Source: a virus
Length of the DNA: 63,359 bases
Direction: 5' to 3' (one strand)
Virus record (IMG/VR): IMGVR_UViG_3300023179_000108
Coordinates: 1-63,359 of that record
The notes beneath the pieces are model-generated. The model did not search any database. It was given only the letters and a program-made list of their open reading frames with translations, and was not told the origin of the DNA. A program made the position numbers and the translations under genes. Positions 4,460 to 62,994 of the stretch are shown one piece after another. Position 1 is the first letter of the stretch, and each line of letters opens with the position of its first letter.

Positions 4460-4827
4460 GGGGATGACTTGGAATTGATTGCTACACGAATGGCAATATT
4501 ACAAGTAGGAAAATGATACTATTCCTTAATATTGTATCAAAAAATAAATGCTGAAGAATTATCTTCCTTTACCTTCGAAGACGCTATGGCTTTCGTTGGT
4601 GCTGATTACGCAGTAGCTGCCTAATCACTCCCGCACACATCGTGGAATTTAAAAAGAATGTGCAACTAGAGTACGGCTCACTAACTCTTTAAATAAAAGT
4701 GAGAAACATAATGATAATGTATGTATAAAACTTATCTATTTGTCTATTATGAATAATATAATAAACTTGTGAGACGTTGATATTATTATTACTTAGCAAG
4801 ACGCCGGTTCGAATCCGGCCATCTCCA
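4460..4827 (+). ncRNA. ssrA: transfer-messenger RNA (tmRNA)
   Basis: 368 nt, the usual tmRNA size. The 5' end GGGGATGACTTGGAATTGAT and the 3' end with T arm GCCGG-TTCGAAT-CCGGC form the tRNA-like domain; acceptor GGGGATG pairs with CATCTCC with one G-U. After AAAATAAAT a tag frame starts at GCT (4550) and stops at TAA (4622-4624): 24 codons, AEELSSFTFEDAM then AFVGADYAVAA. The end DYAVAA is a typical C-terminal degron-like tag. tmRNA rescues stalled ribosomes with SmpB. The tag is longer than the common 8-15 residues. The exact resume codon is inferred. Confidence 0.93.
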
Positions 4828-4881
4828 CTTATATTTAACTTTCTTCCCTATTAGTTTTGTTAAGATTTAAAAAACTAACCT

Positions 4882-13250: not shown

Positions 13251-13496
13251 ATGAAACAAATTAATGAAGTTAAAAGAATGCAGCAATTAGCTGGTGTTTT
13301 AAAAGAAGAAGATACTTGGGCGGATGCAGCTAGAGAAGAGGCTATAGATGGTATTATAAAAAATATGAAACAAGAAGTGCAAGATTTAATAAGAATGCAA
13401 TATGGTGACACTGCAGAGGGTGTTTTAGATAGAGTTAAAAAAGAATTAAGCATGCATCAATTTGAAGTACCTGATACAGAGGATCTTCCTTTTTAA
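13251..13496 (+). CDS. small acidic protein with N-terminal leader-like helix, 81 aa
   Basis: Begins MKQINEVKRMQQLAGVLKEE, an amphipathic helix ending in Lys-Glu-Glu that resembles the leaders seen on proteins of the 49-63 kb region. The rest is helical and acidic. With its late-type box, this suggests a virion or head-internal protein (inference). Confidence 0.65.
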   Translation: MKQINEVKRMQQLAGVLKEEDTWADAAREEAIDGIIKNMKQEVQDLIRMQYGDTAEGVLDRVKKELSMHQFEVPDTEDLPF

Positions 13497-36650: not shown

Positions 36651-36980
36651 ATGAATGCTAAAATATTTAAACAATTAATTAAAGAAGCAGTTCGTGAAGC
36701 TGTTCGTGAAGAAATTGGTGTGTTGTTATTAGAACAGAAAAAACAAGAATTAAATGAAAGTAAAACATTTAGTTTTACAAGTAATGATATGCCTGTAAGT
36801 GTAGATGCTAAAACAGCATTACGTAGTAAAATGAGTACTATGTTTGGGTATGAAACTCCTCAAGCTCAGTCTCATTTAAAAGTTGATCCAACATCTGATA
36901 ATCCATTTGCTGCTTTTATAGCTGATGCTGGAGCTAATATGACTGCTCAAGATTTATCAGGATTAAGAAATTTAGGATAA
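36651..36980 (+). CDS. virion-cluster protein with leader-like helix, 109 aa
   Basis: Start at 36651 rather than 36612 because the late box lies between. NAKIFKQLIKEAVREAVREE is an amphipathic Arg/Glu helix like other leaders here. The rest is polar and Ala-rich. May be carried in the virion. Confidence 0.62.
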   Translation: MNAKIFKQLIKEAVREAVREEIGVLLLEQKKQELNESKTFSFTSNDMPVSVDAKTALRSKMSTMFGYETPQAQSHLKVDPTSDNPFAAFIADAGANMTAQDLSGLRNLG

Positions 36981-48885: not shown

Positions 48886-49191
48886 ATGCCAGTAACACAT
48901 ACAGGACCATTTACAGTATCATTTAAAAACTCACATACTATTAATGAGTTCGAGGTTCGTTGCTTAGTTGAGGAAAGTGATTTTAATTTATCTTATAATC
49001 CAACTTTAGTAACTAATTATGCCAGCGGTTCTGTAAAAGACTTTGCTACTGGTTCTAGTTTTTATACTTATGCTACATCATTAGGTTTATATAATGATAA
49101 TAATGAATTAATGGCTGTAGCTAAATTTGGTAAACCTATGCTTATATCACCAGACACAGATATGACTTTTGTTGTAAAATATGACACATAA
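48886..49191 (+). CDS. small virion protein, 101 aa
   Basis: Essentially the C-terminal module of the 45998 protein: SLGLYNDNNELMAVAKFGKP with the same FDLSYNPT-like lead-in. A stand-alone copy of the module, possibly capping or trimerising the fibre. Overlaps the next start by 1 nt. Confidence 0.7.
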   Translation: MPVTHTGPFTVSFKNSHTINEFEVRCLVEESDFNLSYNPTLVTNYASGSVKDFATGSSFYTYATSLGLYNDNNELMAVAKFGKPMLISPDTDMTFVVKYDT

Positions 49192-49841
49192 TGATTAAAT
49201 TATTAGACATATTAAAAGAGATAAATATTAAGCAAAAAATAGCAATAGGTAGTGGAGACCAACAATCAGTATACCCTTATTTAAAAGATCCAAATTATGT
49301 TATAAAAAAATTTGATTCACAGCAGGATCAACCTGTTCTTAATAGATATGAGATAAAATATTACCTTAAAATGTTAGAACTATATCCAAAATATATAGCT
49401 AATATTATAATTCCGGATGGAAATATAAAATATTATTTTCAAGAAAAAGTAGATGTAAAAAAAGCACAAGAAGATATATGGGATGTTGTTATAAAAATAA
49501 TAAAAAAAGTAGCATTAGATTTAGAAAAAAAATATAAAACACCAAATGAAGTATATAATGATTTAGTTGCTGTGGATATATTTAATAATGCTAGCAGTTG
49601 GGAAGATATAAAAAATATAAAAGATATAGATGATTTCTTTGAAATTAATTATGGTGAAGGAATACCAATGGATGATTTATTCAACAACTATATTTATAAT
49701 AATTACTCTAAAGATATACCTCTAGTACAAAAATTAAAACCAGTTTGGGATATAGGTAAAAAAATAACTCAATTTGGATCATTTCATGAAGATAATTTAG
49801 GATATGATAAAGATGGTAATTTTAAAATAATAGATCTTTAA
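49191..49841 (+). CDS. kinase-like protein with N-terminal leader, 216 aa
   Basis: Begins MIKLLDILKEI, the leader shared by several proteins downstream. Then IAIGSGDQQSVYPYL resembles a Gly-rich loop and VIKKFD carries a candidate ATP-binding Lys. The end FHEDNLGYDKDGNFKIIDL holds H199-x-D201-N202 and D215, like the catalytic and Mg-binding residues of kinase/aminoglycoside-phosphotransferase folds. It stops one residue after D215, so there is no C-lobe beyond the activation start. Kinase activity is inference. The leader suggests packaging in the head. Confidence 0.6.
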   Translation: MIKLLDILKEINIKQKIAIGSGDQQSVYPYLKDPNYVIKKFDSQQDQPVLNRYEIKYYLKMLELYPKYIANIIIPDGNIKYYFQEKVDVKKAQEDIWDVVIKIIKKVALDLEKKYKTPNEVYNDLVAVDIFNNASSWEDIKNIKDIDDFFEINYGEGIPMDDLFNNYIYNNYSKDIPLVQKLKPVWDIGKKITQFGSFHEDNLGYDKDGNFKIIDL

Positions 49842-49847
49842 CATGTT

Positions 49848-50279
49848 ATGACACATAAATGGAAATATTGGGATCGTTTTGAACCTGAAAATTATTATGG
49901 TTTTGTTTATAAAATTACCAATTTAAAAACTGGAAAGTTTTATATTGGGAAAAAATCGTTTTATCATAACAAAAAACATAAGCTCACTAAAAAACAACTT
50001 ACTGAACAAACAGGCCGCGGTCGTAAACCTACTCATGAAACAATTCAAGTTGAAAGCGATTGGAAAACATACTGGGGTTCTAATAAGCAATTAATAGCTG
50101 ATATTAAAGAACTAGGTGAAGATAAATTTGATTGTACTATCTTAAAATTATGTAAGACCAAAAAACAACTTACGTATTGGGAAATGCACCATCAATGTCT
50201 GAGTCAATGTATAGTTAGTTATGATTTAAGTTATAATGACAATATATTAGGTAAATTCTTTCCTAAAGACTTGGTTTAG
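49848..50279 (+). CDS. GIY-YIG-like endonuclease
   Basis: 143 residues. GFVYKITNLKTGKFYIGKKS carries the GIY (here F-V-Y) and YIG halves; WKTYWGSNKQL and the Glu in YWEMHHQ supply later conserved positions. Resembles Seg-type or free-standing phage homing nucleases. Confidence 0.78.
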   Translation: MTHKWKYWDRFEPENYYGFVYKITNLKTGKFYIGKKSFYHNKKHKLTKKQLTEQTGRGRKPTHETIQVESDWKTYWGSNKQLIADIKELGEDKFDCTILKLCKTKKQLTYWEMHHQCLSQCIVSYDLSYNDNILGKFFPKDLV

Positions 50280-50300
50280 GCAAACTAATATCATATATTT
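50279..50300 (+). promoter_or_regulatory. early-type promoter for the primase operon
   Basis: GGCAAACTAATATCATATAT, overlapping the TAG of the endonuclease; an early-class promoter inside the late region. Confidence 0.5.
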
Positions 50301-50306
50301 CCTTTA

Positions 50307-51248
50307 ATGGAAAATACAGCTTTATTATTTCTGATTGAATCAGTACTAGGTAAGGGACAATCTACAAGTAAAGGTAACTACGCATTTAAATGTCCATTCT
50401 GTACTCATCATAAAAATAAATTAGAAATTAATTTAAATACAACATCAAAACGTGAAAACTTTTGGCATTGTTGGATATGTGGAGCTAAAGGAAAAACATT
50501 ACTTACTTTATTTAAAAAAATAAAAGTATCTAATAATAAAATAAGTGATTTAAATATATTAATTGTTCCTACTAAAAAGGAAGAACATATTCCTATTAGT
50601 ACTATTGAATTACCTAAAGAATTTATTTCATTATCACGTTCCATAGAAGATAAAGTTGCTCAAATTGAAGCAAAACATGCTTTAAGATTCCTAAAAAAAC
50701 GAAATATATCATCAGATGATATTATAAAATATAATATTGGTTTTTGTAAAGAAGGAAAATATGAGTATCGTGTTATTGTTCCTTCATATGATGAACAAGG
50801 CAAATTAAATTACTTTATAGCGCGTGACTATAAAGAACCATCACTTCAAAAATATAAAAATCCACCCGTATCGGCTAAAGACGTAATCGGGTTTGAGCTA
50901 TACATAAATTGGGATGCACCTATTATTCTTGTTGAAGGAATATTTGATGCTCTCACCATTAAACGAAATGTTATTCCTTTATTTGGTAAAGTAATACATG
51001 GTAAACTAATGGAAAAACTAGTTAAATCTTCTGTAGATAGAATTTATATTGCTTTAGATAATGATGCTAGACGTGATGCTTTGAAACAAGCTGAAATGTT
51101 GATGTCGTATGGTAAAGAAGTATATTTGGTTGAAATGGAAGGTAAAGACGCTAATGAAATAGGTTTTGAACAATTCTTTAAAACTATCGAGCAAACATAT
51201 CCTCTAAATCTTCAAAGTTTGCTTGAAAAAAAATTACAATTAATATGA
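50307..51248 (+). CDS. DNA primase (DnaG/gp61-like)
   Basis: 313 residues. Zinc finger C29-x2-C32...C55-x2-C58 (CPFC, CWIC), a catalytic core, and a Toprim domain with ILVEGIFDAL (Glu210) and IALDNDARRD (Asp251, Asp253). Makes RNA primers on the lagging strand. Shorter than DnaG, without a helicase-binding C-terminus. Preceded by its own early-type promoter. Confidence 0.9.
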   Translation: MENTALLFLIESVLGKGQSTSKGNYAFKCPFCTHHKNKLEINLNTTSKRENFWHCWICGAKGKTLLTLFKKIKVSNNKISDLNILIVPTKKEEHIPISTIELPKEFISLSRSIEDKVAQIEAKHALRFLKKRNISSDDIIKYNIGFCKEGKYEYRVIVPSYDEQGKLNYFIARDYKEPSLQKYKNPPVSAKDVIGFELYINWDAPIILVEGIFDALTIKRNVIPLFGKVIHGKLMEKLVKSSVDRIYIALDNDARRDALKQAEMLMSYGKEVYLVEMEGKDANEIGFEQFFKTIEQTYPLNLQSLLEKKLQLI

Positions 51249-52027
51249 TTGAAAAAAATGTAAATATACTTAAAGATCCTAAGATCAAACGTATAATTGA
51301 ACACAACGAACAAGACAAACAAATAAATGTTTTAGATTCACGTTTTTATAAGCGTAATGAAAAATATTATCCATCTGTTACTTCTATTTTAAATTATTTT
51401 CCTAAAAATAAATTCTTTCATGAATGGCTTAAAGACGTAGGACATAACAGTGATATTATAGCCGCTAAAGCATCTGCTGAAGGTACTCAAGTACATAATG
51501 CTGTTGATAGATTTTTAAATGGAGAAGAAATTCAATGGATAGATGAATATGGACACGCTATATATTCACTTGAAGTTTGGAAAATGATTTTAAAATTTGC
51601 TGAGTTCTGGAATACACATAAACCTGAACTTATAGCTACAGAATATCATTTATTCTCAGATAGCCATGAATATGCTGGTACTGCTGATTTAATAGTCAGG
51701 TTAAATAATCAAGTTTGGTTACTTGATGTTAAAACATCAAATTCACTTCATACCTCCTATGATTTACAGTTATCAGCTTATGCTGTTGCTTGGAATGAAA
51801 CACACAATACACTTATTGAGCGCACAGGTATTATATGGTTAAAAGCAGCTACTCGTGGTGAAGGTAAAGGTGATTCAATTCAAGGTAAAGGATGGCAACT
51901 AAAACCAATAGACGGTATAGCTACTAATTTTAAAATGTTTCAAAATATATATGAAATATATAAACTTGAAAATCCAGATTTTAAACCTATGACTGAGTTA
52001 TTACCTACGTCGGTCAAAGTATCTTAA
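51245..52027 (+). CDS. RecB-like PD-(D/E)XK exonuclease
   Basis: 260 residues. His84 in GTQVHNAVDRF, Asp148 in GTADLIV, Asp161-x-Lys163 in LLDVKTS and LQLSAYAVAW (Gln175, Tyr179) are the motifs of Cas4/RecB nuclease domains. No helicase part. Probably acts on DNA ends in replication or recombination. Start overlaps the primase stop by 4 nt. Confidence 0.85.
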   Translation: MIEKNVNILKDPKIKRIIEHNEQDKQINVLDSRFYKRNEKYYPSVTSILNYFPKNKFFHEWLKDVGHNSDIIAAKASAEGTQVHNAVDRFLNGEEIQWIDEYGHAIYSLEVWKMILKFAEFWNTHKPELIATEYHLFSDSHEYAGTADLIVRLNNQVWLLDVKTSNSLHTSYDLQLSAYAVAWNETHNTLIERTGIIWLKAATRGEGKGDSIQGKGWQLKPIDGIATNFKMFQNIYEIYKLENPDFKPMTELLPTSVKVS

Positions 52028-52040
52028 GTATATTTATTTG
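52028..52040 (+). promoter_or_regulatory. late-type promoter box
   Basis: GTATATTTATTTG, immediately before the GTG start; leaves almost no leader, so this may not be a working promoter. Confidence 0.3.
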
Positions 52041-52041
52041 T

Positions 52042-52731
52042 GTGAATCAACAAATAACAATAGTGATTCCTTGTAAAAACGAAGGTGAAGGAATTGTAGA
52101 TGTTATCAAATTAATATTAAAACAAATAAATTGTAAAATAATAATAGCAGACTCTTCAGATGATGAAGAGTCTATTTTATTATTGCATAAATATATTTCA
52201 TTACATTCAAATATACAAGTTATAAAAGGTGGATTACCATCAGTAGCTCGTAATAATGGAGCTAAATTAGTAACTACTCCTTATGTATTGTTTTTAGATG
52301 CTGACATTTATATATATAAGAAAAATTTAATAAGAAAATGTATTAGGTTAGCAATTCAAAATAACTATGATTTAGTTACTTGTAAATTTAAAACTGATAA
52401 ACCTTATAGATGGGTATTTAGAATATTTAATATAATACAATGGTTTAGTTTATTAACTAAACCTTTTGCTTTAGGTGGTTTTATGTTATTTAAAACAGAA
52501 ACATTTAATAAACTAAAAGGATTCAATGAACAAGATAAAGTTGCTGAAGACTACAGGCTTAGCTCAAAAATTAAATCTAAAAAATTTAAAGTGTTTAATG
52601 GTTATGTATATACTCCAAGTAGAAGATTTGATAAAAAAGGTGTATGGTATATGATTAAATTAATGTGGAAATCTTGGATTAATCAAAATAATGATAAATT
52701 TTTTGAGAATGATCAAAATTACTGGAAATAA
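52042..52731 (+). CDS. glycosyltransferase family 2
   Basis: 229 residues, GTG start. ITIVIPCKNEGEGIVDVIKL, then IIADSSDD, VARNNGAK and FLDADIYIYKKNL (metal-binding D-A-D) are classic GT2 blocks; VAEDYRLSSKI supplies the ED motif. A hydrophobic stretch (FRIFNIIQWFSLLTKPFALG) may bind membrane. Likely modifies a surface lipid or polysaccharide. Confidence 0.85.
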   Translation: MNQQITIVIPCKNEGEGIVDVIKLILKQINCKIIIADSSDDEESILLLHKYISLHSNIQVIKGGLPSVARNNGAKLVTTPYVLFLDADIYIYKKNLIRKCIRLAIQNNYDLVTCKFKTDKPYRWVFRIFNIIQWFSLLTKPFALGGFMLFKTETFNKLKGFNEQDKVAEDYRLSSKIKSKKFKVFNGYVYTPSRRFDKKGVWYMIKLMWKSWINQNNDKFFENDQNYWK

Positions 52732-52734
52732 AGT

Positions 52735-53481
52735 ATGAAAAAATATCAAACAATTATTGTCTCTGATTTACATTTAGGAATAAAAGATAGTAAAGCAGAA
52801 GAATTTATAGAATTCATTGAAAATTATTCTACTGATTTATTAATACTAAATGGTGATATTATAGATGGATGGGCTATTAATAGAGGAAGTAAATGGAAAA
52901 AACATCATACTAAAGTAATATCTAAATTATTAAAATTATCAAATAAAACAAAAATAATTTGGATTAGAGGAAATCATGATGAATTTATACAAGAATTTAT
53001 AGGATCTTATTTTGGTGGTATTGAAATTAGAGAAGATTATCGATTACAATATTATGAACATGTTGAATACGATATTTGGAAATCAAAATGTTATTATATA
53101 TTTCATGGAGATATAATTGATATTTTTATAACAAAATATAAATGGTTATCAAAATTAGGAGCAATTGGATATGATTTTGCATTATGGTTAAATAGATGGT
53201 ATAATACTTACCGCAAATGGCGTAAATTACCATACCAATCAATTTCACAAAAAATTAAAGCAGGTGTGAAGACAGCTACTAATTATATTAACGATTTTGA
53301 AACTACTGCTCTCTCTATGGCAAACAAAAACGGCTGTGATGGCGTAATTTGTGGACATATACATCAACCAGAAGACAGAATAATAAATGGTAAACGATAT
53401 TTAAATAGTGGAGATTGGGTTGAAAATATGAGTGCTATACTTATAGATAAAAATGGAAAAATAGAAATTTATAAAAAATAA
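52735..53481 (+). CDS. metallophosphoesterase, LpxH/UDP-diacylglucosamine hydrolase-like
   Basis: 248 residues. SDLHLG (Asp11, His13), LNGDIIDGW (Asp41), RGNHDEF (Asn80, His81), FHGD and CGHIHQPE. The order and the WINRxY-type middle (FALWLNRWYNTYRKW) match LpxH-like hydrolases acting on UDP-2,3-diacylglucosamine. Next to the glycosyltransferase, it suggests that the phage alters lipid A or a related envelope glycolipid (inference). Confidence 0.82.
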   Translation: MKKYQTIIVSDLHLGIKDSKAEEFIEFIENYSTDLLILNGDIIDGWAINRGSKWKKHHTKVISKLLKLSNKTKIIWIRGNHDEFIQEFIGSYFGGIEIREDYRLQYYEHVEYDIWKSKCYYIFHGDIIDIFITKYKWLSKLGAIGYDFALWLNRWYNTYRKWRKLPYQSISQKIKAGVKTATNYINDFETTALSMANKNGCDGVICGHIHQPEDRIINGKRYLNSGDWVENMSAILIDKNGKIEIYKK

Positions 53482-53484
53482 ATT

Positions 53485-53610
53485 ATGTATAAGATTTTAG
53501 ATACACTGTTTAACTTTAATTCAAATAAAAAAATAGACTTTGAAAAAGGTGTTTATTGGGGAATAATCACATTTATTTCTTTATTATTGTTTTTTTCATA
53601 TATACTATAA
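53485..53610 (+). CDS. small membrane protein, 41 aa
   Basis: MYKILDTLFNFNSNKKIDFE then GVYWGIITFISLLLFFSYIL: one C-terminal membrane helix. Last gene before a terminator. Confidence 0.55.
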   Translation: MYKILDTLFNFNSNKKIDFEKGVYWGIITFISLLLFFSYIL

Positions 53611-53622
53611 ATTTATTGTTTT

Positions 53623-53635
53623 AAATATTTATAGG
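53623..53635 (+). promoter_or_regulatory. late-type promoter box
   Basis: AAATATTTATAGG directly before the hairpin at 53634. Confidence 0.4.
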
Positions 53636-53669
53636 TGGCTTGGTTTGTCCAAGTCACCTATTTATTTTT
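53634..53669 (+). terminator. hairpin, probable terminator
   Basis: GGTGGCTTGG-TTTG-TCCAAGTCACC then TATTTATTTTT; could alternatively be a stable 5' leader hairpin of the 53676 mRNA if the box just upstream is its promoter. Confidence 0.6.
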
Positions 53670-53675
53670 ACAACA

Positions 53676-55076
53676 ATGAATTTAGGACAATACTTAGTAC
53701 AACAGTTATTAGAGGATAATATACAAGAAGTATACCCAAAGCGTTCTTCAGATGACATTAATCAAAATTATGTAACTAAAAAAGAACATTGGATTGAAAA
53801 AGCAGCTGCTGACTTTAATTATCCAATACCAGATATACGTTTTGCTTTTATAGCGGGAGGTATGGTAGTGTTAACTGATGATATTTGGTCTAAATTAGAA
53901 AATCAAGACTTAGAAGATGATTTAGAACTTGATGGTCCAGCAATGGTATTAAATTATGATGATGATAAGTATTATTTAGTATATGGAGGTAATTTATTAA
54001 GAAAACATAAAGAATTAAATAAAATACCTAAAGTATTAATGGGTAAACTTAATGTTAAAGGTCCTAAACCATTTCCATTAAAAGAAGGATTAGATAAAGA
54101 TACATTAAACTCATTTTTAAAATTTGCAATTAAAGAATTAGGATTAAAACAGTTACCTTCAAAGATTACTTTATCTAAAAACGTTAAAAAAGCAAGAGAA
54201 CGCCATACATTTGGTACATTCAATTCTGAAAATAAAAGCATTTGGTTATACACTAACAACAGAAATACAGCTGATATTTTAAGAACATTAGCTCATGAAT
54301 TAGTACATCGTAAACAAGAGGAAGATGGTAGATTAAAACCTGATAGTGGTGAAACAGGTTCTGAAATTGAAAATGAAGCTAATGCTAAAGCGGGTGTATT
54401 GTTAAGAAAGTTTGGAGAAAAAAATCCAATGATATACGAGGGAATGTATGGTAATTACTTATTTGGAGATAAAAATACAGGAGCTGCTATTGGTTGGTAT
54501 GAGAATGAAATGGAATCTGATACTCCTGCTGAGAAAAAATTATTTAATATCCTAAAAAAATATACCGATTCAGAATATGAAACTTACTCAGCTGTAAATT
54601 TGGATGATTTTATCCCTATTTTTAAAAAATTAAAAAACCAATATCCTGAAATAGTAGATCCTAAATTATCATCTAATACCTACATTTATAGAGGTACTAG
54701 TTTACCAAAAGAACAAATAGATAAATTAAATGCTGAGATAAAAGATACAACATATTATAAACAAGGATATATTATTCCTAATCAAACGTATAAGTCTAGA
54801 AGAAAAGCCCAATCGTGGAGTATTAATTATTTTACAGCTTCAGGATTTGCTTTTACAAGTGCTGAAAAAAAAGGAGGAGTACCTGTTATAATGAGAGCAA
54901 AAGTATCAGATGCTGATTTATATTTTAATTCAAAATTTATAGACAAATTAAGCACTCAAGCAGAAGATGAAACTTTCAATATAGTTAACCCAATTCCAGT
55001 AGATATTATGGTTATGGAATTTTATGAAGATGAATTTGAAGATATAGAAGCAGGATATTTACATACTAAAAAATAA
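53676..55076 (+). CDS. metallopeptidase-ADP-ribosyltransferase fusion with leader-like N-terminus, 466 aa
   Basis: Start at 53676; the frame is open from 53640 but that part runs through a hairpin. N-terminal NLGQYLVQQLLEDNIQE is a leader-like helix. Residues 40-125 are a small unknown domain. Residues 140-245 carry HELVH (207-211) with downstream E230/E232/E234, the signature of a zinc metallopeptidase. Residues 254-450 carry an ART layout: YIYRG (Arg339), QSWSINYF (Ser380-Trp-Ser382) and EDE (430-432), the R-S-E pattern. This half is homologous to the 62005 protein (EGMYGNYLFGD against EGIFGDYLFAD). ART enzymes attach ADP-ribose from NAD to targets. The fusion is unusual. Host targets are unknown. 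Confidence 0.75.
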   Translation: MNLGQYLVQQLLEDNIQEVYPKRSSDDINQNYVTKKEHWIEKAAADFNYPIPDIRFAFIAGGMVVLTDDIWSKLENQDLEDDLELDGPAMVLNYDDDKYYLVYGGNLLRKHKELNKIPKVLMGKLNVKGPKPFPLKEGLDKDTLNSFLKFAIKELGLKQLPSKITLSKNVKKARERHTFGTFNSENKSIWLYTNNRNTADILRTLAHELVHRKQEEDGRLKPDSGETGSEIENEANAKAGVLLRKFGEKNPMIYEGMYGNYLFGDKNTGAAIGWYENEMESDTPAEKKLFNILKKYTDSEYETYSAVNLDDFIPIFKKLKNQYPEIVDPKLSSNTYIYRGTSLPKEQIDKLNAEIKDTTYYKQGYIIPNQTYKSRRKAQSWSINYFTASGFAFTSAEKKGGVPVIMRAKVSDADLYFNSKFIDKLSTQAEDETFNIVNPIPVDIMVMEFYEDEFEDIEAGYLHTKK

Positions 55077-55080
55077 TGTT

Positions 55081-55665
55081 ATGAGCGAATCAATGTTACA
55101 ACGTGAATTTCGTGAACGTGATGTTCAACGAATGAGAAATATAATCACTAAAAATGCTGATGCTAAAACAGTAACACAAGTTGGTTATACTAAAAAACAA
55201 ATAGAATATAATGAAGGCGATATTTGGGAAGAAAACGGCAAACAGTGGATTATTAAAAATGGTATAAAACAGACTGTTACTCGTTTTGATAAGTTAAAAA
55301 AATCAATCATATTACCTATTACATGCCCTAAATGTAATAAAGCAATGAAGGCAACATCATTAAATAAAAAGATGTGGCCTATTCATGGCACCTGTTTTGA
55401 TTGTGTCATTGAAATGGAAACTGAGTTAAAACGTCAAGGTAAGTTTGAAGAATATGCTCGCAATTTAGTTAATCGAGGTGTTAAAACTCATATTAAAGAT
55501 GTTGAAGACTTAATTTTAGAAATAGCATTAGAAGACAATAATGAAGAATTTGTTACTGAACAAGGTGATATTGAAAAATGGGCTGGTAAAGGTATTGATA
55601 AACAAAAAATAATACAAGAATTACAAGAATATATAGCTAAACTTAAAGACCATATCTCTTCATAA
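55081..55665 (+). CDS. zinc-ribbon protein, 194 aa
   Basis: N-terminal SESMLQREFRERDVQRMRNI helix, then ITCPKCNKAMKATSLNKKMW...CFDCVIEME, a C-x2-C...C-x2-C ribbon at about 86-117, and a helical acidic C-terminus. I recall similar proteins in T4-like environmental phages without a function. Possibly a structural or assembly factor. Confidence 0.68.
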   Translation: MSESMLQREFRERDVQRMRNIITKNADAKTVTQVGYTKKQIEYNEGDIWEENGKQWIIKNGIKQTVTRFDKLKKSIILPITCPKCNKAMKATSLNKKMWPIHGTCFDCVIEMETELKRQGKFEEYARNLVNRGVKTHIKDVEDLILEIALEDNNEEFVTEQGDIEKWAGKGIDKQKIIQELQEYIAKLKDHISS

Positions 55666-55675
55666 TATTTATAGG
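55662..55675 (+). promoter_or_regulatory. late-type promoter box
   Basis: ATAATATTTATAGG, overlapping the end of the 55081 gene. Confidence 0.5.
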
Positions 55676-55697
55676 CAATTAACTATTAAAATGAAGT

Positions 55698-56000
55698 ATG
55701 GAATCAAATAACATTTGGTCAGTAATAATTACAGCTATAACTATTTTAGGAGGTAGTACAGCATTTCGTTTTTATGAACAAAGAGCACAAAAAAGAGAAA
55801 GAGATGAAGATTTTATTAGACATGACTGTAAAGATAGAATCGCTAAGTTAGAAGCACTTTTAGAAGAATCATCTGAAGAAAAAAACGAACTACGCAACTT
55901 AATTATAAAATTAACAGCTGAAGTAGCTGAACTGCGAGTTAAAGTAGAATACTTATCTGAAGAAAACGCTAAATTAGAAAAAGCATTCAAACCAAAATAA
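55698..56000 (+). CDS. membrane-anchored coiled-coil protein, 100 aa
   Basis: One N-terminal membrane helix (IWSVIITAITILGGSTAF) and a long Glu/Lys coiled coil to the end. The topology of an i-spanin or a holin accessory; it lies two genes before an amidase, so a second lysis cassette is possible. Confidence 0.65.
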   Translation: MESNNIWSVIITAITILGGSTAFRFYEQRAQKRERDEDFIRHDCKDRIAKLEALLEESSEEKNELRNLIIKLTAEVAELRVKVEYLSEENAKLEKAFKPK

Positions 56001-56001
56001 C

Positions 56002-56238
56002 ATGCATAAATTATTAGATCTTATAAATGAAGCCAAAGAAGGACCCATTGAATACCCCGCTAACCATAAGCCAGGCATGCGTGTAACTAAGGGTGGTTCA
56101 ATGTGTGCTAACTGTGAGTATTGGGTTGAGAAAGGTAACTTATGTAATAACAAATATTGGTTAAAATGGAGAAATGGTGATGCTAAAATACCTGCTCCTG
56201 CAGATGAATACTGCTGTAACTGGTGGCATGCAAAATAA
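56002..56238 (+). CDS. Cys-rich HiPIP-like protein with leader, 78 aa
   Basis: Leader MHKLLDLINEAKEG, then MCANCEYWVEKGNLCNNKYW and APADEYCCNWW: five Cys in an order like high-potential iron-sulfur proteins, as seen in several phage families. It may bind an iron-sulfur cluster or zinc. The leader suggests head localisation. Confidence 0.65.
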   Translation: MHKLLDLINEAKEGPIEYPANHKPGMRVTKGGSMCANCEYWVEKGNLCNNKYWLKWRNGDAKIPAPADEYCCNWWHAK

Positions 56239-56244
56239 TATTTT

Positions 56245-56907
56245 ATGAAAGTAACACAAGTACCCTTTTCAGCTGATCAATACATTAAAGAAGAACATAA
56301 AAAAACTCAAATATACCTCCATCACACTGCAGGTAATGCAAATCCAATTGCTGTTTTTAATGATTGGGGAGCAAATAAAGAAAGAATAGCAACATGCGTT
56401 ACTATAGGTGGAAAACCGGGTGTTAGTAAAGGATGGATAGACGGAGAAGTAGCTCAAGGATTTAGCTCTAAGTATTGGGCTTATCATTTAGGTCTTAAAG
56501 AATCTACATTTCAAAAATATGGAATAACATATAGATCGTTAGATAAAACTTCAATTGGAATTGAAATATGTAATTGGGGTCAATTAACATATAAGAATGG
56601 TAAGTTTTTTAATTATGTTAATAGAGAAGTCCCTAAAGATGAAGTAGTAGAATTACCTGTTGCTCATCGTGGATTTAAATTTTACCATGCTTATACAGAT
56701 GCTCAAATAGCAACTGTACAAGAATTACTCACATCATGGAAAAACCACTATAATATCCCTATCCATTATAACCCAGACATTTGGGATATAACGCCTAGAG
56801 CGTTAAGAGGTGAGCCCGGAGTATACACTCATAACTCAGTTAGAATAGATAAAGTGGATGTATCACCACAACCAAGATTAATTGAAATGCTTAAATCATT
56901 ACCATAA
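56245..56907 (+). CDS. N-acetylmuramoyl-L-alanine amidase (Amidase_2)
   Basis: 220 residues. IYLHHTAGNANP (His26/His27), WAYHLGLKE, SIGIEICNWG and KFYHAYTDAQIATVQELL are the blocks of zinc amidases that split the stem peptide from muramic acid. No signal peptide. This is the third peptidoglycan hydrolase in the window; as it lies in the late cluster it may be virion-associated. Overlaps the next ATG. Confidence 0.88.
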   Translation: MKVTQVPFSADQYIKEEHKKTQIYLHHTAGNANPIAVFNDWGANKERIATCVTIGGKPGVSKGWIDGEVAQGFSSKYWAYHLGLKESTFQKYGITYRSLDKTSIGIEICNWGQLTYKNGKFFNYVNREVPKDEVVELPVAHRGFKFYHAYTDAQIATVQELLTSWKNHYNIPIHYNPDIWDITPRALRGEPGVYTHNSVRIDKVDVSPQPRLIEMLKSLP

Positions 56908-57542
56908 TGGAAAATAAAGAATTATTAATCGAAGACTGTGGATGTAATGGTCCTCAACTCATAAACGAATCTAAAGGTATGATATTATCTGAAGGTTTAA
57001 TATACCATCTTAAAGAAGGTAGAATGTTAATTAATAACATATATCGTCCTTTATCTGAAAATTATTTTGCTTTATTTCGTGAAGCACGTGAATTATATAA
57101 TAAAGGATTACTTTCAGTAACCGAAGATGATGCTGAATTGTTAGAATCAAACATTGGTGAATTTGGAATATATAATGGTATAAGAGTACCTTTAGATTAT
57201 GTTATTAGCTTAGACGAGTTAATATCATTAACTGAGGCTAAAGAATTAAAAGAAGCAGATAAAAAGAAAAAAACACCTCCAATCGGTAAACCAAAACGTG
57301 GCGGTTCAAAGAAATTTTACGTTTATGTTCGCAAACCAGGTGGTGGAATTAAAAAAGTATCATTTGGTGATACAACAGGATTACGTGCTAAAATAAATAA
57401 TCCAAAAGCTAGACAAGCCTTTGCTAAAAGACACAAATGTGCTCAAGCTAAAGACAGAACAACAGCGCGTTATTGGAGTTGTAGGCTTCCCAGAATAGCA
57501 AAGTCTTTAGGTCTTAAAACTAATTATTCCGGTTATTGGTAA
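56907..57542 (+). CDS. conserved T4-like phage protein with basic C-terminal domain, 211 aa
   Basis: N-terminal half is acidic. C-terminal KRGGSKKFYVYVRKPGGGIK, KVSFGDTTGLRAKINNPKAR, QAFAKRHKC and ARYWSCRLPR are blocks I recall as highly conserved in marine T4-like phages (DUF5872-like). The basic domain may bind nucleic acid and could be packaged. Function unknown. Confidence 0.72.
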   Translation: MENKELLIEDCGCNGPQLINESKGMILSEGLIYHLKEGRMLINNIYRPLSENYFALFREARELYNKGLLSVTEDDAELLESNIGEFGIYNGIRVPLDYVISLDELISLTEAKELKEADKKKKTPPIGKPKRGGSKKFYVYVRKPGGGIKKVSFGDTTGLRAKINNPKARQAFAKRHKCAQAKDRTTARYWSCRLPRIAKSLGLKTNYSGYW

Positions 57543-57558
57543 GGAAATCGGCCTCCCC

Positions 57559-57569
57559 AATATTTATAG
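57559..57569 (+). promoter_or_regulatory. late-type promoter box
   Basis: AATATTTATAG upstream of 57581. Confidence 0.5.
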
Positions 57570-57580
57570 TAAATATAAAT

Positions 57581-58207
57581 ATGGCATACGTTTATCTTGT
57601 AACTAATATAATTAATAATAAAAAATATATTGGATCCTCTAGAAAAGAAAATATAGATCCTCATTATTTTGGAAGTGGTAAAAGAATAAGAAAAGCTTTA
57701 CAAAAATACGGTAAAGAAAATTTTAAAAAAGAAATACTGTGGGAAGGTAAAGGAGATGCTAGAGATATAGAAGCATATTGGTTAAAACATTTTGATGCTT
57801 CTTCTAATCCTCAATTTTATAATATGACTAATGATGCTAGAGGAAATGGATTTCATAAAGAAGAAACCAAAAAAACTGTTAGTGAAAAACTAACAGGAAG
57901 AAAATTTTCAAAAGAAATTTGCGAAAAAATATCTAAAGCAAAACTAGGTAAACCCAACCCCAAAAAAGGTAAATTAGACGGTCCTAAACCAGGAGTAACA
58001 GCTGCTCATAAAGGTAGAATTAGTCCTAATAAAGGTAAAGGAAAACAAGTAGCTTTATATACTGTTGAAGGAAAATATATTAAAACCTACTCTAATTACT
58101 ATGAATTAGCAATTGATTTACAAATAAACCCAGAAACAGTAAGATGTCAACTTATTGGGAAAGCACAAACTATTAAAAATAAACAATATAAAGCTGAATA
58201 TTTATAA
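57581..58207 (+). CDS. GIY-YIG homing endonuclease with NUMOD motifs
   Basis: 208 residues; start at 57581 after AAATATAAAT rather than 57536. YVYLVTN (3-9) and KYIGSS (15-20) give the GIY-YIG core. SEKLTGRKFSKEICEKISKA and later Lys-rich repeats are NUMOD3-type DNA-binding modules, and VALYTVEGKYIKTYSNYYEL looks like NUMOD1. Typical free-standing homing nuclease inserted between structural genes. Confidence 0.9.
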   Translation: MAYVYLVTNIINNKKYIGSSRKENIDPHYFGSGKRIRKALQKYGKENFKKEILWEGKGDARDIEAYWLKHFDASSNPQFYNMTNDARGNGFHKEETKKTVSEKLTGRKFSKEICEKISKAKLGKPNPKKGKLDGPKPGVTAAHKGRISPNKGKGKQVALYTVEGKYIKTYSNYYELAIDLQINPETVRCQLIGKAQTIKNKQYKAEYL

Positions 58208-58210
58208 TAT

Positions 58211-58471
58211 ATGAAGCCATACACCGACATTGAAACTACATCCGAATACACTATACGTGAATTCGATGAAAATATAGACCCTGTTGAATTGCTTTGGCAT
58301 CGCGACGATGAAAATCGTACAATAGAAATTATAGGAAAAACTAATTGGCAAGTACAACTTGACAATGAATTACCAACATCATTAAATAAGTCTATATTTA
58401 TACCAAGACACTGCTGGCATAGAGTAATTAAAGGTAGTGGTAAATTGCAATTAAAGATCTATAAATCGTGA
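58211..58471 (+). CDS. cupin-like small beta-barrel protein, 86 aa
   Basis: VELLWHRDDENRTIEIIGKT, NWQVQLDNELP, IFIPRHCWHRVIKGSGKLQL: a cupin-like pattern with His/Arg positions conserved in many T4-like phages. Function unknown. Its TGA overlaps the GTG start of the next gene. Confidence 0.72.
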   Translation: MKPYTDIETTSEYTIREFDENIDPVELLWHRDDENRTIEIIGKTNWQVQLDNELPTSLNKSIFIPRHCWHRVIKGSGKLQLKIYKS

Positions 58472-58887
58472 TCAAACTAACCGACATATTAAAAGAAATA
58501 CTATTAGAAGATCGCTGCAAACGCATTGCTGATCGCCGCTATAGTAAACCATCAGCATACAAATCAGGTGCTATTGTAAGATGTCGTAAAGGTGATATTT
58601 GGAAAGGAATTAAATCTGAAGCGTTTTTCATTGGTGAAGATGATATTGATCAACTAACTGAAAAACAAAAAGAAACTCTCCGCACCTGGTTTAAACGCAA
58701 AGGCGCTCCCGGCAAAACAGGCGGTTGGGTTGATTGTAATACATGCCGTGAAGTAGATGGGAAGAAAAAATGTAAACCATGCGGCAGACAAAAAGGTGAA
58801 AAACGAGCTAAATACCCATCATGTCGCCCAACACCATCACAATGTGGTGACCCAGGCAAAGGTAAATCATGGGGGAAAACAAAATAA
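58468..58887 (+). CDS. leader-bearing Cys-rich basic protein, 139 aa
   Basis: GTG start; GTG overlaps the upstream TGA. Leader MIKLTDILKEILLED, then AIVRCRKGDIWKG, LRTWFKRKGAPGKTGGWVDC, CKPCG and YPSCRPTPSQC. The Cys/Arg-rich half resembles DUF5872-type phage proteins, perhaps zinc-binding. Leader and basic character suggest a DNA-associated internal head protein (inference). Confidence 0.7.
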   Translation: MIKLTDILKEILLEDRCKRIADRRYSKPSAYKSGAIVRCRKGDIWKGIKSEAFFIGEDDIDQLTEKQKETLRTWFKRKGAPGKTGGWVDCNTCREVDGKKKCKPCGRQKGEKRAKYPSCRPTPSQCGDPGKGKSWGKTK

Positions 58888-58888
58888 T

Positions 58889-58898
58889 AATATTTATA
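58889..58898 (+). promoter_or_regulatory. late-type promoter box
   Basis: AATATTTATA upstream of 58918. Confidence 0.5.
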
Positions 58899-58917
58899 CA
58901 TATAAAACTATAATCAA

Positions 58918-59337
58918 ATGACAATTAATGAAATACGTCAAGCAGTTAGAGAAGTAATTGCTGAAGCAAAAGAAAAAGGACTACCCAAAAGTGGTGGTAA
59001 ATTAGTGCATCTTAAAAAAGAATTAAAGAGTTTAAAAGCAATGAAAGAATCATTAGCTCAATACTCAATTAATGAAAACATTAGCGAACCTGTAGTTGAG
59101 TTTGCTCATTTACAGCGCTTTGTTAATGAAATGGCTAAAATTAAAGCTGCTCATGGTAAATTAGCTGAAATGTTAGATAGTCAAATTACCGAAGTAGAAA
59201 GTAAAGTAACAGCTGAAACTCAAAAGATTAAAGAAATGATTGGTTTAGTTGAACCACAAGCTGAAGCTAAAAAGAAAAAATCAGCTAAGAAAAAAGAAGA
59301 ACCTAAAGAAGATAAGGAACCTAAAAAAGGCAAATAA
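58918..59337 (+). CDS. leader-bearing helical protein with Lys-rich tail, 139 aa
   Basis: TINEIRQAVREVIAEAKEKG leader-like helix, a long helical middle and a KKKKSAKKKEEPKED tail. Not recognised; the shape suits a scaffold-like or internal head protein. Stop and next ATG overlap by 1 nt. Confidence 0.65.
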   Translation: MTINEIRQAVREVIAEAKEKGLPKSGGKLVHLKKELKSLKAMKESLAQYSINENISEPVVEFAHLQRFVNEMAKIKAAHGKLAEMLDSQITEVESKVTAETQKIKEMIGLVEPQAEAKKKKSAKKKEEPKEDKEPKKGK

Positions 59338-59711
59338 TGGAAAACGCCATCATAGGTCAATTCGTTTCTGCTTTAATGGCGTCTCGTACGCAAGCTCATA
59401 TTTATCATCTTCAAACACCATCGTTTGCTGCTCATAAAGCATTAAATGAATACTACGATAATATTGTAGATATAATTGATGGGTTAGTTGAATCATATCA
59501 AGGTAAATATGGTATCATTACTGGTTATAGTAATGTAGCCTTACAAGAATATCAAAGTTGTGATGGTATTATTGCTTATTTCACTACATTATGTATGTTT
59601 GTTGAAAAAACTAGATCAATGATAACCCAAGATTCATACATTCAAAATCAAGTTGACGAAGTAGTAGCTGAAATTAATTCTTTACTTTACAAATTAAAAT
59701 ATTTAAAATGA
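59337..59711 (+). CDS. DUF5856-like helical protein, 124 aa
   Basis: [40 protein letters not shown] and ESYQGKYGI: a conserved helical block in T4-like environmental phages that looks like a four-helix, Dps/ferritin-like bundle. No activity known. Start and end overlap both neighbours. Confidence 0.72.
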
Positions 59712-60364
59712 TAAAATTACTTGACTTATTAGAGAAAAAAATGACTCCCGCTCAAAAGAAAAAGCGCGGGGAAATATTTGATAAACTCAAAGCATCAGGC
59801 ATGTCTGACGCTAAAGCAGGAGCTATTGCTACTTCTCGCGCTATGAGTGAAGATTTAGACCCTATAGGTCAAGAAGATGATGATATAAATAACGATGGTA
59901 AAGTTAATAAAACAGATAAATATTTAGCTGCTCGTCGTAAAGCAATATCTAAAGCAGTACAAAAAGAAAATCTAGATCCTGAAGAAATATGGTCTAATTT
60001 AAGTAATGAAAAAAGAGCAAAAATACTAAGAAAAGTAATTTATGGAGCAGAGAACATGCCTCTTTATAGATCATTAGCTGCAAACACGGCTACTTTAGAT
60101 AATCTATCTCCAAAAAATGTACAAAGCATATATAGCTATCTTATAAATAATACTTTAAATAAGTCTTTAAATGAAGGTGATCATGAAGTATCAATGGCCC
60201 AATCTAGTTTAAAAGCAATTGCTAAAGCAGCCCTTGAATTATCTCAAAAATTAGGAACAGTTGAACGTAACATACCTGGTTGGATTCAAGATCATATAGC
60301 TAAAGCTGAAAACTATATTGAGCAAGCAGCTCAAGGTTTTCATGAATTAAAAAACGATGAATAA
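59708..60364 (+). CDS. leader-bearing protein with EF-hand-like motif, 218 aa
   Basis: Leader [36 protein letters not shown], an EF-hand/dockerin-like [20 protein letters not shown] (near 57-76) that may bind calcium, and a C-terminal helical block [20 protein letters not shown] conserved in T4-like phages. Probably internal to the head or core. Confidence 0.7.
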
Positions 60365-60878
60365 ACAATTATTATTAGAAAAATACATTAAAGTTGCTGT
60401 TCGCAAAGCTCTTGCTGAACAAGAAGAAAGAGAAAAGAAGGCAACTAAAGCTATGTATCTTGTATATCGCTTTCCCGGATTAAAGAAAGTTATGGAAGAT
60501 CTAATGTCTCCTACTTTTGGTCGTTTTATTAGCGATGTTAAAATAATAGCACCAAAACCAACTACGTTTACTGCTAAGTTAATAAACGAGCAAGATTTTA
60601 ATATTATATATGATGGTAAAAAGAATTTCACTGTTAAAGTAGCAGGGAAAAAATATAATATGCAAAACTTAGGCGAATTAGAAAGAGCACAACAAGCAAT
60701 CGCAAACGTGTTAGAATTAAATTATGCTATTGCTGAGGGAGAAGGTAAAGGAGCACCTGCTCCTGATGCTGGAGCCGAAGCATTTACTGCTACTTCAAGT
60801 GCTCCAGAAACAACACCAGCAGAAGAAACCCCACCAGCAGAAACACCAGCTGAAGAAACACCACCCGCTGAAGCCTAA
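60357..60878 (+). CDS. leader-like protein with Pro-Glu-rich tail, 173 aa
   Basis: [20 protein letters not shown] leader-like helix, a middle alpha/beta domain ([20 protein letters not shown]) and a C-terminal [20 protein letters not shown] low-complexity tail. Virion-associated by position. Not recognised. Confidence 0.65.
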
Positions 60879-60881
60879 ACA

Positions 60882-61946
60882 ATGACAGTTACTGATATAC
60901 TTACAGAATGGTCTTATAGATGCCCAGATGGTATAGTTGATTTAAAGGATCCTATTAAAATAAACATATTGAATGAAATACTAAAAGAAATAGGATTTCA
61001 AGAAACTATAGAAGAAGCTATGTCACCTAGAAAAGAAGCCATAGACATTTTAATAAGTAAATATAAAAATGAATTAGGCCCTCATAGTCGTCCTGGACGA
61101 ATAAAAAATATAGGTAATAAACTAACACCTGACGAATTCAAAAAAAGAATAGAAAATACAGATGTATTTAATAATCCTAAAGTAGAAAAAATAGACGCTG
61201 GCGATTCTAGAAATCCAAGCATGAGTAATCCTGCATTTAAATTTGAATATAAAGGTCAAAACATAATAATTGTTTTAGGAAGAGAAGCTCCTGGTCTAGA
61301 AGCTGAAAAGCAACAAGTAGATAAAATAAACAGTTTTATTCAAAGTATTGAAGGTGGAATAAATATAAAAATAAAGGATAAAATATACTATAATATCAAA
61401 TCAGCTAAACTTGATCTTAAAAATAAACACGCTGATATAATATTAGAAGGGGATGAAAATATTTATATTCAATATAAAGATGCCAACGAAGCAGATGAAT
61501 TTCAACAGTATTCTGGTATAGAAAAATTTAAAAGTGAAACTATTGTTAGGGACTTTATAGATGAAGTTCCTTCTAGCGGAGTAAAAAAAGGTGAAATGTA
61601 TAAAAGAAAAATTCCAAAAGGTAATTTATACAATCGGGGTATATTTGGAATTGGTAATTCTGAAGGAGATAAAGTTCAAATAGTATGTATAGGACCTATA
61701 CAAATAGAAAAAGAAGGTAATTATTACACTATAAAAGGAAGTACTGTTACTTTAATAGATGGAAGCCCAATTCCTGAAGATTATCAACCTTACTTAGGAG
61801 CAAGATATGCTTCTGATAGAAATCAAGAAGATAAAAGCCATACCCGATTTGGAATATACCCAGAAAAATATATTAAAAAGTTTAAAAATCCAACACAAGA
61901 AGAACCAACACTAGAAGAAATACTTTTTTCTTTAAGGGCAAAATAA
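60882..61946 (+). CDS. nuclease-like protein with conserved phage N-terminus, 354 aa
   Basis: TVTDILTEWSYRCPDGIVDL is a conserved N-terminal block of T4-like phage proteins, followed by another leader-like helix (INILNEILKEIG). The middle has KHADIILEGDENIYIQYKDA: Asp, then a strand with Gln-x-Lys, compatible with a PD-(D/E)XK-type site; this is tentative. The C-terminal part is a beta domain. Its last codons overlap the duplicated promoter at 61937. Confidence 0.6.
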   Translation: MTVTDILTEWSYRCPDGIVDLKDPIKINILNEILKEIGFQETIEEAMSPRKEAIDILISKYKNELGPHSRPGRIKNIGNKLTPDEFKKRIENTDVFNNPKVEKIDAGDSRNPSMSNPAFKFEYKGQNIIIVLGREAPGLEAEKQQVDKINSFIQSIEGGINIKIKDKIYYNIKSAKLDLKNKHADIILEGDENIYIQYKDANEADEFQQYSGIEKFKSETIVRDFIDEVPSSGVKKGEMYKRKIPKGNLYNRGIFGIGNSEGDKVQIVCIGPIQIEKEGNYYTIKGSTVTLIDGSPIPEDYQPYLGARYASDRNQEDKSHTRFGIYPEKYIKKFKNPTQEEPTLEEILFSLRAK

Positions 61947-61998
61947 ACTTCGTACTTTTAAAGCATGAATATATTTTATATCAACCACGATCCAATCT
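61937..61998 (+). repeat. direct repeat copy A: promoter plus gene start
   Basis: GGCAAAATAAACTTCGTACT through ATGAATATATTTTATATCAA to CCAATC; matches 62997-63059 apart from a few bases. Confidence 0.9.
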
Positions 61999-62003
61999 TG
62001 TAA
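61965..62003 (+). pseudogene. 12-codon duplicated start of the 63025 gene
   Basis: Reads MNIFYINHDPIL then stops, against MNIFYINQDPII at 63025. A cut-off copy lying 1 nt ahead of the ART gene; may act as a translated leader. Confidence 0.8.
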
Positions 62004-62004
62004 G

Positions 62005-62994
62005 ATGATTAAATTGATAGATATATTAAAAGAAGGAATATTTGGAGATTACTTGTTTGCAGATGAAAAATCTGGGGTAGAATATGGACTTTACGATAAA
62101 GAATTAGAAAAAGATACTCCTGAAGAATATAAACTATTTCAAGATTTAAAGTTATATGCTGCAGGCGGAGATTTTGAGGATATTAGTTTAGATAAACATG
62201 CTAGTTTATTAAAACAACTTAAAAAAGAATACCCTTCTTTTATTAAAACAAATTTATCTCCTGAAGATTACATATATAGAGGTACAGTTATTTTTAAAGA
62301 TAAATTAATTGATTTAATAAAAGAAAAAAAAATCATAAAAAATAAAGCATCTTATACTGTTTCTAATATTCCATACACTTCTAAAAAAATAATATCATCA
62401 TGGTCTTCTAATTTCTTTGCAGCTCATGATTTTGCTTATGAAACTCTTTTAAGAAAAAAAAATAATAACTTTATCCCTGCAGTTTTAAGAGTTAAAGTAA
62501 AAGAAGCAGATGTTTATTTTAAAGATGATTTTTTTGTAAAAATAAGTGATAATCAAGAATGGGAAGTTTTAAATATGAAACAACCTATAAATGTGGATAT
62601 GGTAATTCAAAGAAGAGATATCAATAATATAAAAATACGAGATAAAAATGAACTTTCTTTTGCAGAAGAATTAGCTATAAAAAGAATTAAAGATTATATA
62701 AAACAACCTGATTATTATTTATATATTAGTAATCTTCCTATTAATGAAATACCAAAAGAATTAAAGTTAGTAAAAGATGATTTTTTTGCTGATAATACTC
62801 CTATAAAATCATTACCTGATAATTTAGAAGTACAGGGAGATTTATATTTAAGATACTCTGCTATTAATATTTTACCTAAAAATCTAAAAGTTAAAGGAAA
62901 TTTAAATTTAGAAGGTACCCCTTTATCTAAAAAATATTCTCAAGAAGAACTAAAAAAATTACTTCCTGGTGTTGGAGGAGAAATTATAACTTAG
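62005..62994 (+). CDS. ADP-ribosyltransferase-like protein with leader and leucine-rich-like repeats, 329 aa
   Basis: Leader MIKLIDILKEG, then EGIFGDYLFAD (shared with the 53676 protein). ART pattern: YIYRGT (Arg92), SSWSSNFFAAHDFAYETLL (Ser132-Trp-Ser134) and QEWE (Glu185, Glu187), fitting the R-S-E class. Residues 238-305 are leucine-rich-like repeats (LPINEIPKELKLV, IKSLPDNLEVQGDLYLR, INILPKNLKVKGNLNLEGTP), which could bind a host target. T4 Alt is a packaged ART that modifies host RNA polymerase; a similar role is inference. The gene is flanked by a direct repeat. Confidence 0.75.
   Translation: MIKLIDILKEGIFGDYLFADEKSGVEYGLYDKELEKDTPEEYKLFQDLKLYAAGGDFEDISLDKHASLLKQLKKEYPSFIKTNLSPEDYIYRGTVIFKDKLIDLIKEKKIIKNKASYTVSNIPYTSKKIISSWSSNFFAAHDFAYETLLRKKNNNFIPAVLRVKVKEADVYFKDDFFVKISDNQEWEVLNMKQPINVDMVIQRRDINNIKIRDKNELSFAEELAIKRIKDYIKQPDYYLYISNLPINEIPKELKLVKDDFFADNTPIKSLPDNLEVQGDLYLRYSAINILPKNLKVKGNLNLEGTPLSKKYSQEELKKLLPGVGGEIIT

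Follow-up and report, generated by a model that had tools for sequence, protein, structure and literature searches.

A short N-terminal leader on unrelated phage proteins that probably marks them for carriage in the head and injection

The stretch of DNA considered here (63,359 nucleotides; the window) is a 63-kb virus fragment, IMG/VR record IMGVR_UViG_3300023179_000108, in which T4-like baseplate genes (gp25- and gp6-like) at 33 to 49 kb are followed, from 49 to 63 kb, by plus-strand genes of small and medium size. Our subject is a leader of about ten residues at the N-terminus of several of its genes. The principal form, M-I/H-K-L-x-D-I/L-L/I-x-E/K (class A), begins five genes, all on the plus strand: MIKLLDILKE (49191..49220) on a 216-residue protein with a kinase-like body (gene 49191-49841); MHKLLDLINE (56002..56031) on a Cys-rich protein of 78 residues (56002-56238); MIKLTDILKE, read from a GTG start (58468..58497), on a 139-residue DUF5872 protein (58468-58887); a leader at 59708..59737 on a 218-residue protein with an EF-hand-like motif, assigned to PHROGs 4359, 3326 and 38880 (59708-60364); and MIKLIDILKE (62005..62034) on a 329-residue protein in which ADP-ribosyltransferase (ART)-like R...SWS...ExE motifs precede a leucine-rich-repeat (LRR)-like region (62005-62994). 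The leader at 59708 lacks Glu10, and its L7-L8-E9 forms the I/L-x-E motif one residue earlier, ending at residue 9. A preliminary description of this DNA had reported these five leaders, and each is present in an open reading frame (ORF) at the coordinates given above.

Six further genes, also on the plus strand, have looser leaders. The type MNLGQYLVQQLLE (53676..53714) opens a protein that joins an HExxH metalloprotease-like part to an ART-like C-terminus (53676-55076) and is also found on nucleotidyltransferase-like proteins of two IMG/VR relatives of the window, G002 and G003. Amphipathic helices ending in I/L-x-E begin the genes at 58918 (MTINEIRQAVREVIAE, 58918..58965; gene 58918-59337, with a Lys-rich C-terminus), 60357 (60357..60419; gene 60357-60878) and 36651 (36651..36734), the last encoding a small conserved protein within the baseplate operon whose membership of the leader set is uncertain. 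MTVTDILTE (60882..60908) begins gene 60882-61946, called nuclease-like in the preliminary description and assigned to PHROG 13937, of unknown function; its homologues in G002 and G003 start MTVIDKILRE. Finally, MKQINEVKRMQQLAGVLKE (13251..13307), on an 81-residue protein (13251-13496) outside the late region, had been taken for a looser version of the same leader and belongs instead to a second type, KRMQQLAGIIxE (class B), which recurs at 54212 in the relative G001 and at 11675 in Flavobacterium phage immuto (L083) and places I/L-x-E at one constant position in 22 of 24 proteins. All six looser leaders are thus present, but they represent other leader types and are not weak copies of one motif. 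The bodies behind the leaders, said to differ completely, nearly do so: the 53676 and 62005 proteins have one domain in common.

When the core peptide I-K-L/F-x-D-I-L/F-K-E was searched for in IMG/VR with no start codon specified, ATG, GTG or TTG stood directly before it in 76 of 86 matches (among the matches listed). A scrambled-order peptide searched through the whole collection gave 18 stretches, far fewer than the leader peptide (at least 119), and only one of the 18 was preceded by a start (Fisher 1e-11). Across bacterial and archaeal genomes (one per species), 8 of 81 core matches were start-preceded (Fisher 1e-26); two of those eight are tandem genes on a Prochlorococcus single-cell contig (L443), starting MIKFKDILKE and MIKFVDILKE, which are likely of phage origin. 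Single-linkage BLASTP divides 149 non-redundant leader proteins, a set that takes in a few chance matches such as L290 and L279, into 64 body families. What emerges is a short N-terminal tag (about ten residues) on otherwise unrelated proteins, as in a capsid-targeting sequence (CTS) of the T4 type. Tandem LRR-like paralogues on two contigs (L266:7021-9461 and L265:4714-6125) each have a leader of their own.

In T4 itself, IPI, IPII, IPIII and Alt carry a CTS (Mullaney and Black, 1996, reviewed in PMC9026906). The first ten residues of IPIII are enough for targeting; residues 4 and 7 serve targeting and residues 8 and 10 serve processing, which is cleavage after I/L-x-E, and Asp at residue 10 prevents processing with targeting unaffected (PMC9026906). 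IPII and IPIII start MKTYQEFIAE in the T4 record. Residues L4, I7, L8 and E10 of the leader coincide with the positions that matter in IPIII, a statement in which residues 4, 7 and 8 are set by our search pattern and are tested only by the genome-wide register count given below. That pattern, M-I-K-L-[LIVMF]-D-I-L followed by unconstrained residues at 9 and 10, returned 80 non-redundant genes, which are partly related, so a formal p-value has to be read with caution. At residue 10, 66 of the 80 have Glu and one has Asp; five further genes have Glu at residue 9 and three at residue 11, with an aliphatic residue two before each. Altogether, [ILVM]-x-E ends at residues 9-11 in 74/80 leader genes, against a background, for the motif ending at 8-12, of roughly 9-18% of called genes per genome. 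Residue 9 is variable (K, N, L, R), and conservation stops after Glu10. The Glu preference at residue 10 and the retention of I/L-x-E are as a T4 gp21-type cleavage site predicts. A cut after Lys-Glu had been proposed; the predicted cut does follow a Glu, that of I/L-x-E, but residue 9 is free and need not be Lys.

These counts also bear on whether the leader might, uncut, dock its passengers to another part of the virion (tail tube, tape measure, baseplate or neck), I/L-x-E being simply part of the binding helix. We consider this unlikely. Helix packing poorly explains a Glu:Asp ratio of 66:1 at residue 10, which is unlike residue 6, where the leader family has Asp (partly fixed by the search pattern), and the register is that of the T4 IP signal. 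The leader cluster borders on both the baseplate and the head modules, and the amphipathic N-terminus of 36651 lies inside the baseplate operon, both of which would suit docking; against it, genes with other leader types (G001 53347, 53682 and 54212, for example) lie in the portal-protease interval, which core genes 67 and 68 occupy in T4.

The leader evolves apart from the body that it precedes. In the kinase-like family, whose members are 24-33% identical overall to the 49191 protein, nine of ten homologues keep the leader, and M1 and E10 are invariant over all ten. DUF5872 bodies, at 64-89% identity, follow MIKLTDILKE in some cases, MVMDRLEKLINEVLEE in others and MGKVNKAYIENIIKEILSE in immuto, and every one of the DUF5872 leaders compared keeps I/L-x-E despite the swap. 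The immuto protein gp082 (L083:12261-12575) is annotated as a tRNA agmatinyltransferase, yet it is homologous to a leader protein family (MRLLELLREAKEAIEDFAKTRG), and the annotation is doubtful.

The leader likewise evolves apart from its DNA. All six Leu codons are used at residue 4, both Asp codons occur, and residue 2 has three Ile codons; in the 40 bases before leader genes there is no conservation, and a promoter or ribosome-binding-site cassette was rejected on that ground. The same observations make it highly improbable that conservation here reflects an element acting in DNA or RNA (a translation start region, or a regulatory or recombination site) and translated by chance, as it begins at the start codon and stops with Glu10. 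Of the 80 genes, 73 use ATA for Ile7, a bias that hints at common DNA ancestry and suggests that leader DNA may also have spread by recombination.

Relatives of the window encode T4-type head proteins. The window's gp6-like protein is 43% identical to that of immuto, whose genome is 160 kb, and also matches Microcystis phage Mel-JY01 (190 kb). Its IMG/VR matches run to hundreds of contigs, among which G001 (183 kb) and G002 (179 kb) are near-complete and about 80% identical to the window in this protein. A prohead protease of family PF03420 (E about 1e-34 to 1e-36) is present in G001, G002, G003 and immuto; it has in common with T4 gp21 the GELxHP and SSRG blocks around the protease His and Ser. 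Each of the four genomes also encodes a gp23-family major capsid protein (MCP); LLE and [IV]SE-A sites occur in the N-termini of these MCPs, where T4 gp23 has its propeptide. PF03420 was found in 8/8 leader contigs longer than 90 kb in a first set, one of which has ATT for the usual start, and in 10/11 with a second set added, a count that leaves out two chance or Glu-less matches. Among contigs longer than 60 kb picked by a chance 14-mer or the scramble, it was found in 3/14; the 14-base pattern was used because a 16-base one yielded too few contigs.

In the same four genomes, the leader genes cluster between baseplate/primase genes and the terminase, portal, protease and MCP genes. Counted over the window, the three IMG/VR relatives and immuto, the strict leader begins 18 of 159 genes in the cluster and head module but 2 of the remaining 816 (Fisher 4e-13). 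For the T4 register (hydrophobic 4, 7 and 8, Glu 10), the counts are 19/159 cluster genes versus 4/816, with 0.2 expected after N-terminus shuffling; these counts used a simple ORF caller on related genomes, with cluster limits set after the leaders had been seen. Compared across genes in this way, the leader is not equally frequent outside the late cluster, in keeping with the preliminary description. It is distinctly unlikely, then, that the leader recruits ordinary intracellular phage enzymes to a structure of the infected cell, such as a replication compartment, a membrane or a host complex. Several passenger folds (RNase T-like exonuclease, 5'-nucleotidase-like) are usual for intracellular phage enzymes, but the leader genes lie with structural modules and are not scattered, and both the I/L-x-E rule and the co-occurrence with a prohead protease argue against such a role.

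Based on the leader itself, its N-terminal position, the unrelated passengers, the Glu preference, the protease in relatives and the gene position, all of them read from sequence, we consider it likely, and well supported, that the leader acts as a T4-like propeptide for capsid targeting, combining head targeting with cleavage. The earlier proposal of an equivalent of the T4 signal is supported by the T4 register, the excess of Glu over Asp, the protease in relatives, the head-module position and the unrelated bodies. Several points weigh on the other side. Some leaders lack Glu10, not every leader gene belongs to the cluster (the few exceptions include G001 8710 and immuto 24569), and the class B leader at 13251 sits in a region without structural genes. 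A prohead protease gene, anticipated elsewhere in the genome, is present in the near-complete relatives and immuto but was not found on the window, which is uninformative since the window is a fragment; nor was PF03420 found on G041, a 102-kb leader contig that is itself perhaps incomplete. The protease comparison involves few contigs, which are not independent of one another, and its direction is as predicted. The Baltic Flavobacterium phage paper mentions neither immuto nor virion proteomics. Scans of viral contigs for close relatives of 62005 and 49191 found none, the homologues having come from the leader scans.

We propose the following course of events, of which we infer core binding, cleavage, packaging, injection and passenger action in the host. 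During prohead assembly, the amphipathic leader helix, with L4, I7 and L8 as its hydrophobic face, would bind the prohead core, and any protein bearing the leader would be taken into the head. The gp21-family prohead protease would then cut after the Glu of I/L-x-E (usually Glu10), freeing the passenger, which would stay with the packaged DNA and enter the host alongside it. In immuto, the predicted cuts follow MISIYNILKE in gp093, MIKLIDLLTE in gp231, an I/L-x-E in the leader of gp084 (the DUF5872 protein) and QIVSE59 in the MCP. The tag, in other words, probably marks proteins that are carried in phage heads and injected; that the leader set as a whole reaches the host by injection seems to us quite likely.

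The passengers are varied. The model of the 49191 protein (predicted local distance difference test score, pLDDT, 77; leader residues 1-24 below 50, disordered) has kinases as its best Foldseek matches (LicA, E 6.6e-4; NleH2, TMt 0.49), K39 and D215 are conserved in its family, and sequence comparison with the PDB gave weak kinase matches only; the model suggests a kinase-like body. Three ART-like sequences, the 53676 C-terminus and 62005 among them, keep YIYRGT, SWS and ExE. The ART-like passengers gave no Pfam ART match and no PDB sequence match, an AlphaFold2 model of 62005 from three sequences reached a pLDDT of 46, and these two window proteins are tentatively, from motifs only, ADP-ribosyltransferase-like. 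The 62005 protein also matches PBECR3 weakly (4e-5, under the curated cut-off), and the 58468 body matches DUF5872 above the Pfam cut-off. Outside the window, matches above the cut-off comprise zeta toxin in three proteins, an RNase T exonuclease and a thioesterase; there is also a 5'-nucleotidase-like fold, and an ART-PolyVal match in L142 (9e-7) just under the curated cut-off. A 2H phosphoesterase with the leader MIKLIDILKEQ... (L152:96-635, minus strand) weakly matches the 2'-5' RNA ligase superfamily and Acb1 (anti-CBASS) and is a candidate injected counter-defence enzyme. PADLOC, run on the leader bodies, gave no clear defence or counter-defence matches. The T4 IPs counter host defences, IPI acting against GmrSD, and IPIII is required on one E. 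coli strain, even without its CTS if made in the host (PMC9391042). By analogy, the leader passengers may have a counter-defence role.

Like the T4 IPs and Alt, the window's proteins place about ten N-terminal residues, hydrophobic at 4, 7 and 8 with Glu at 10 and an I/L-x-E, before unrelated bodies; a gp21-family protease and a gp23-family MCP accompany them, here in relatives; and T4 Alt is an ADP-ribosyltransferase, two of the window's passengers being tentatively ART-like. Unlike T4, the consensus is MIKLxDILKE, not MKTYQEFIAE, the passenger set is far larger, and several leader types appear interchangeable, in another phage lineage whose relatives infect Flavobacterium and which is known here from sequence alone. 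The T4 IPs also diverge among themselves (PMC9026906).

A cyanophage offers a parallel from a further lineage: purified S-SM1 virions were found to contain the cytidylyltransferase T4-GC190, whose cleavage and place in the virion that study did not look at (PMC3037559). T4-GC190 starts MKKFSAFLNEA in S-SM1 and MRSFLTFLTEA in ACG-2014f, with hydrophobic residues at 4, 7 and 8 and Glu10, and the S-SM1 enzyme is a distant relative of the leader-bearing nucleotidyltransferases of G002 and G003 (about 20% identity, E 4e-5 to 5e-4). Unlike the window's lineage, the Kyanoviridae T4-GC190 leader is of the MKxF type, not the MIKL type, and this single instance from another lineage is suggestive by analogy and not proof for the window's. 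Cyanophage cytidylyltransferases (L532:22257-23420, which is S-SM1; L528:911; L529:891) start MKxF..FLxE, and in S-BM3 the Glu comes one residue earlier.

Two further systems are similar in part. Polyvalent proteins are large and multi-domain; unlike them, the passengers of the window's lineage are separate small proteins with a leader each, and leader passengers match polyvalent-protein effector domains (Pfam ART-PolyVal, PBECR3) weakly, under the curated cut-off. Propeptides of phiKZ-like phages are longer and follow another cleavage rule, and the phiKZ-like leader is not the same as that of the window. The phiKZ-like head ejection proteins (SPN3US, phiKZ) do resemble the window's set in having many passengers, N-terminal propeptides and a protease of wide gp21 kinship (PMC5694885, PMC10052503).

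Elsewhere in the window, a phage-encoded transfer-messenger RNA (4460-4828; tag AEELSSFTFEDAMAFVGADYAVAA) adjoins tRNA genes, and the protein that follows the baseplate genes (46991-48874) contains long Thr-Pro repeats (TPTPTP).

Taken together, these data point to what appears to be a new form of the T4 capsid-targeting system in T4-related aquatic phages, one whose cargo set is unusually large. We lean modestly towards a broader view of it as a head-loading code, in which at least three to four leader types (MIKLxDILxE; KRMQQLAGIIxE; MNLGQYLVQQLLE; and amphipathic helices ending in I/L-x-E) would be interchangeable and could be acquired by any gene, with many proteins (ART-like, zeta-toxin-like and kinase-like ones included, and possibly anti-CBASS ones) injected by one phage before phage gene expression; on that view, the leader alone would be a search key for effectors of the first minute of infection. 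It is difficult to foresee which phage proteins accompany the DNA into the cell, and outside T4, P1 and phiKZ-like phages there are few known examples. If the leader is a capsid-targeting signal, a ten-residue pattern would list injected candidates, most of them proteins of unknown function, from sequence across a large group of phages from fresh and marine waters that have not been cultivated. It would also provide packaging tags for loading reporters into non-T4 heads. The cultured relative, Flavobacterium phage immuto, makes the idea directly testable.

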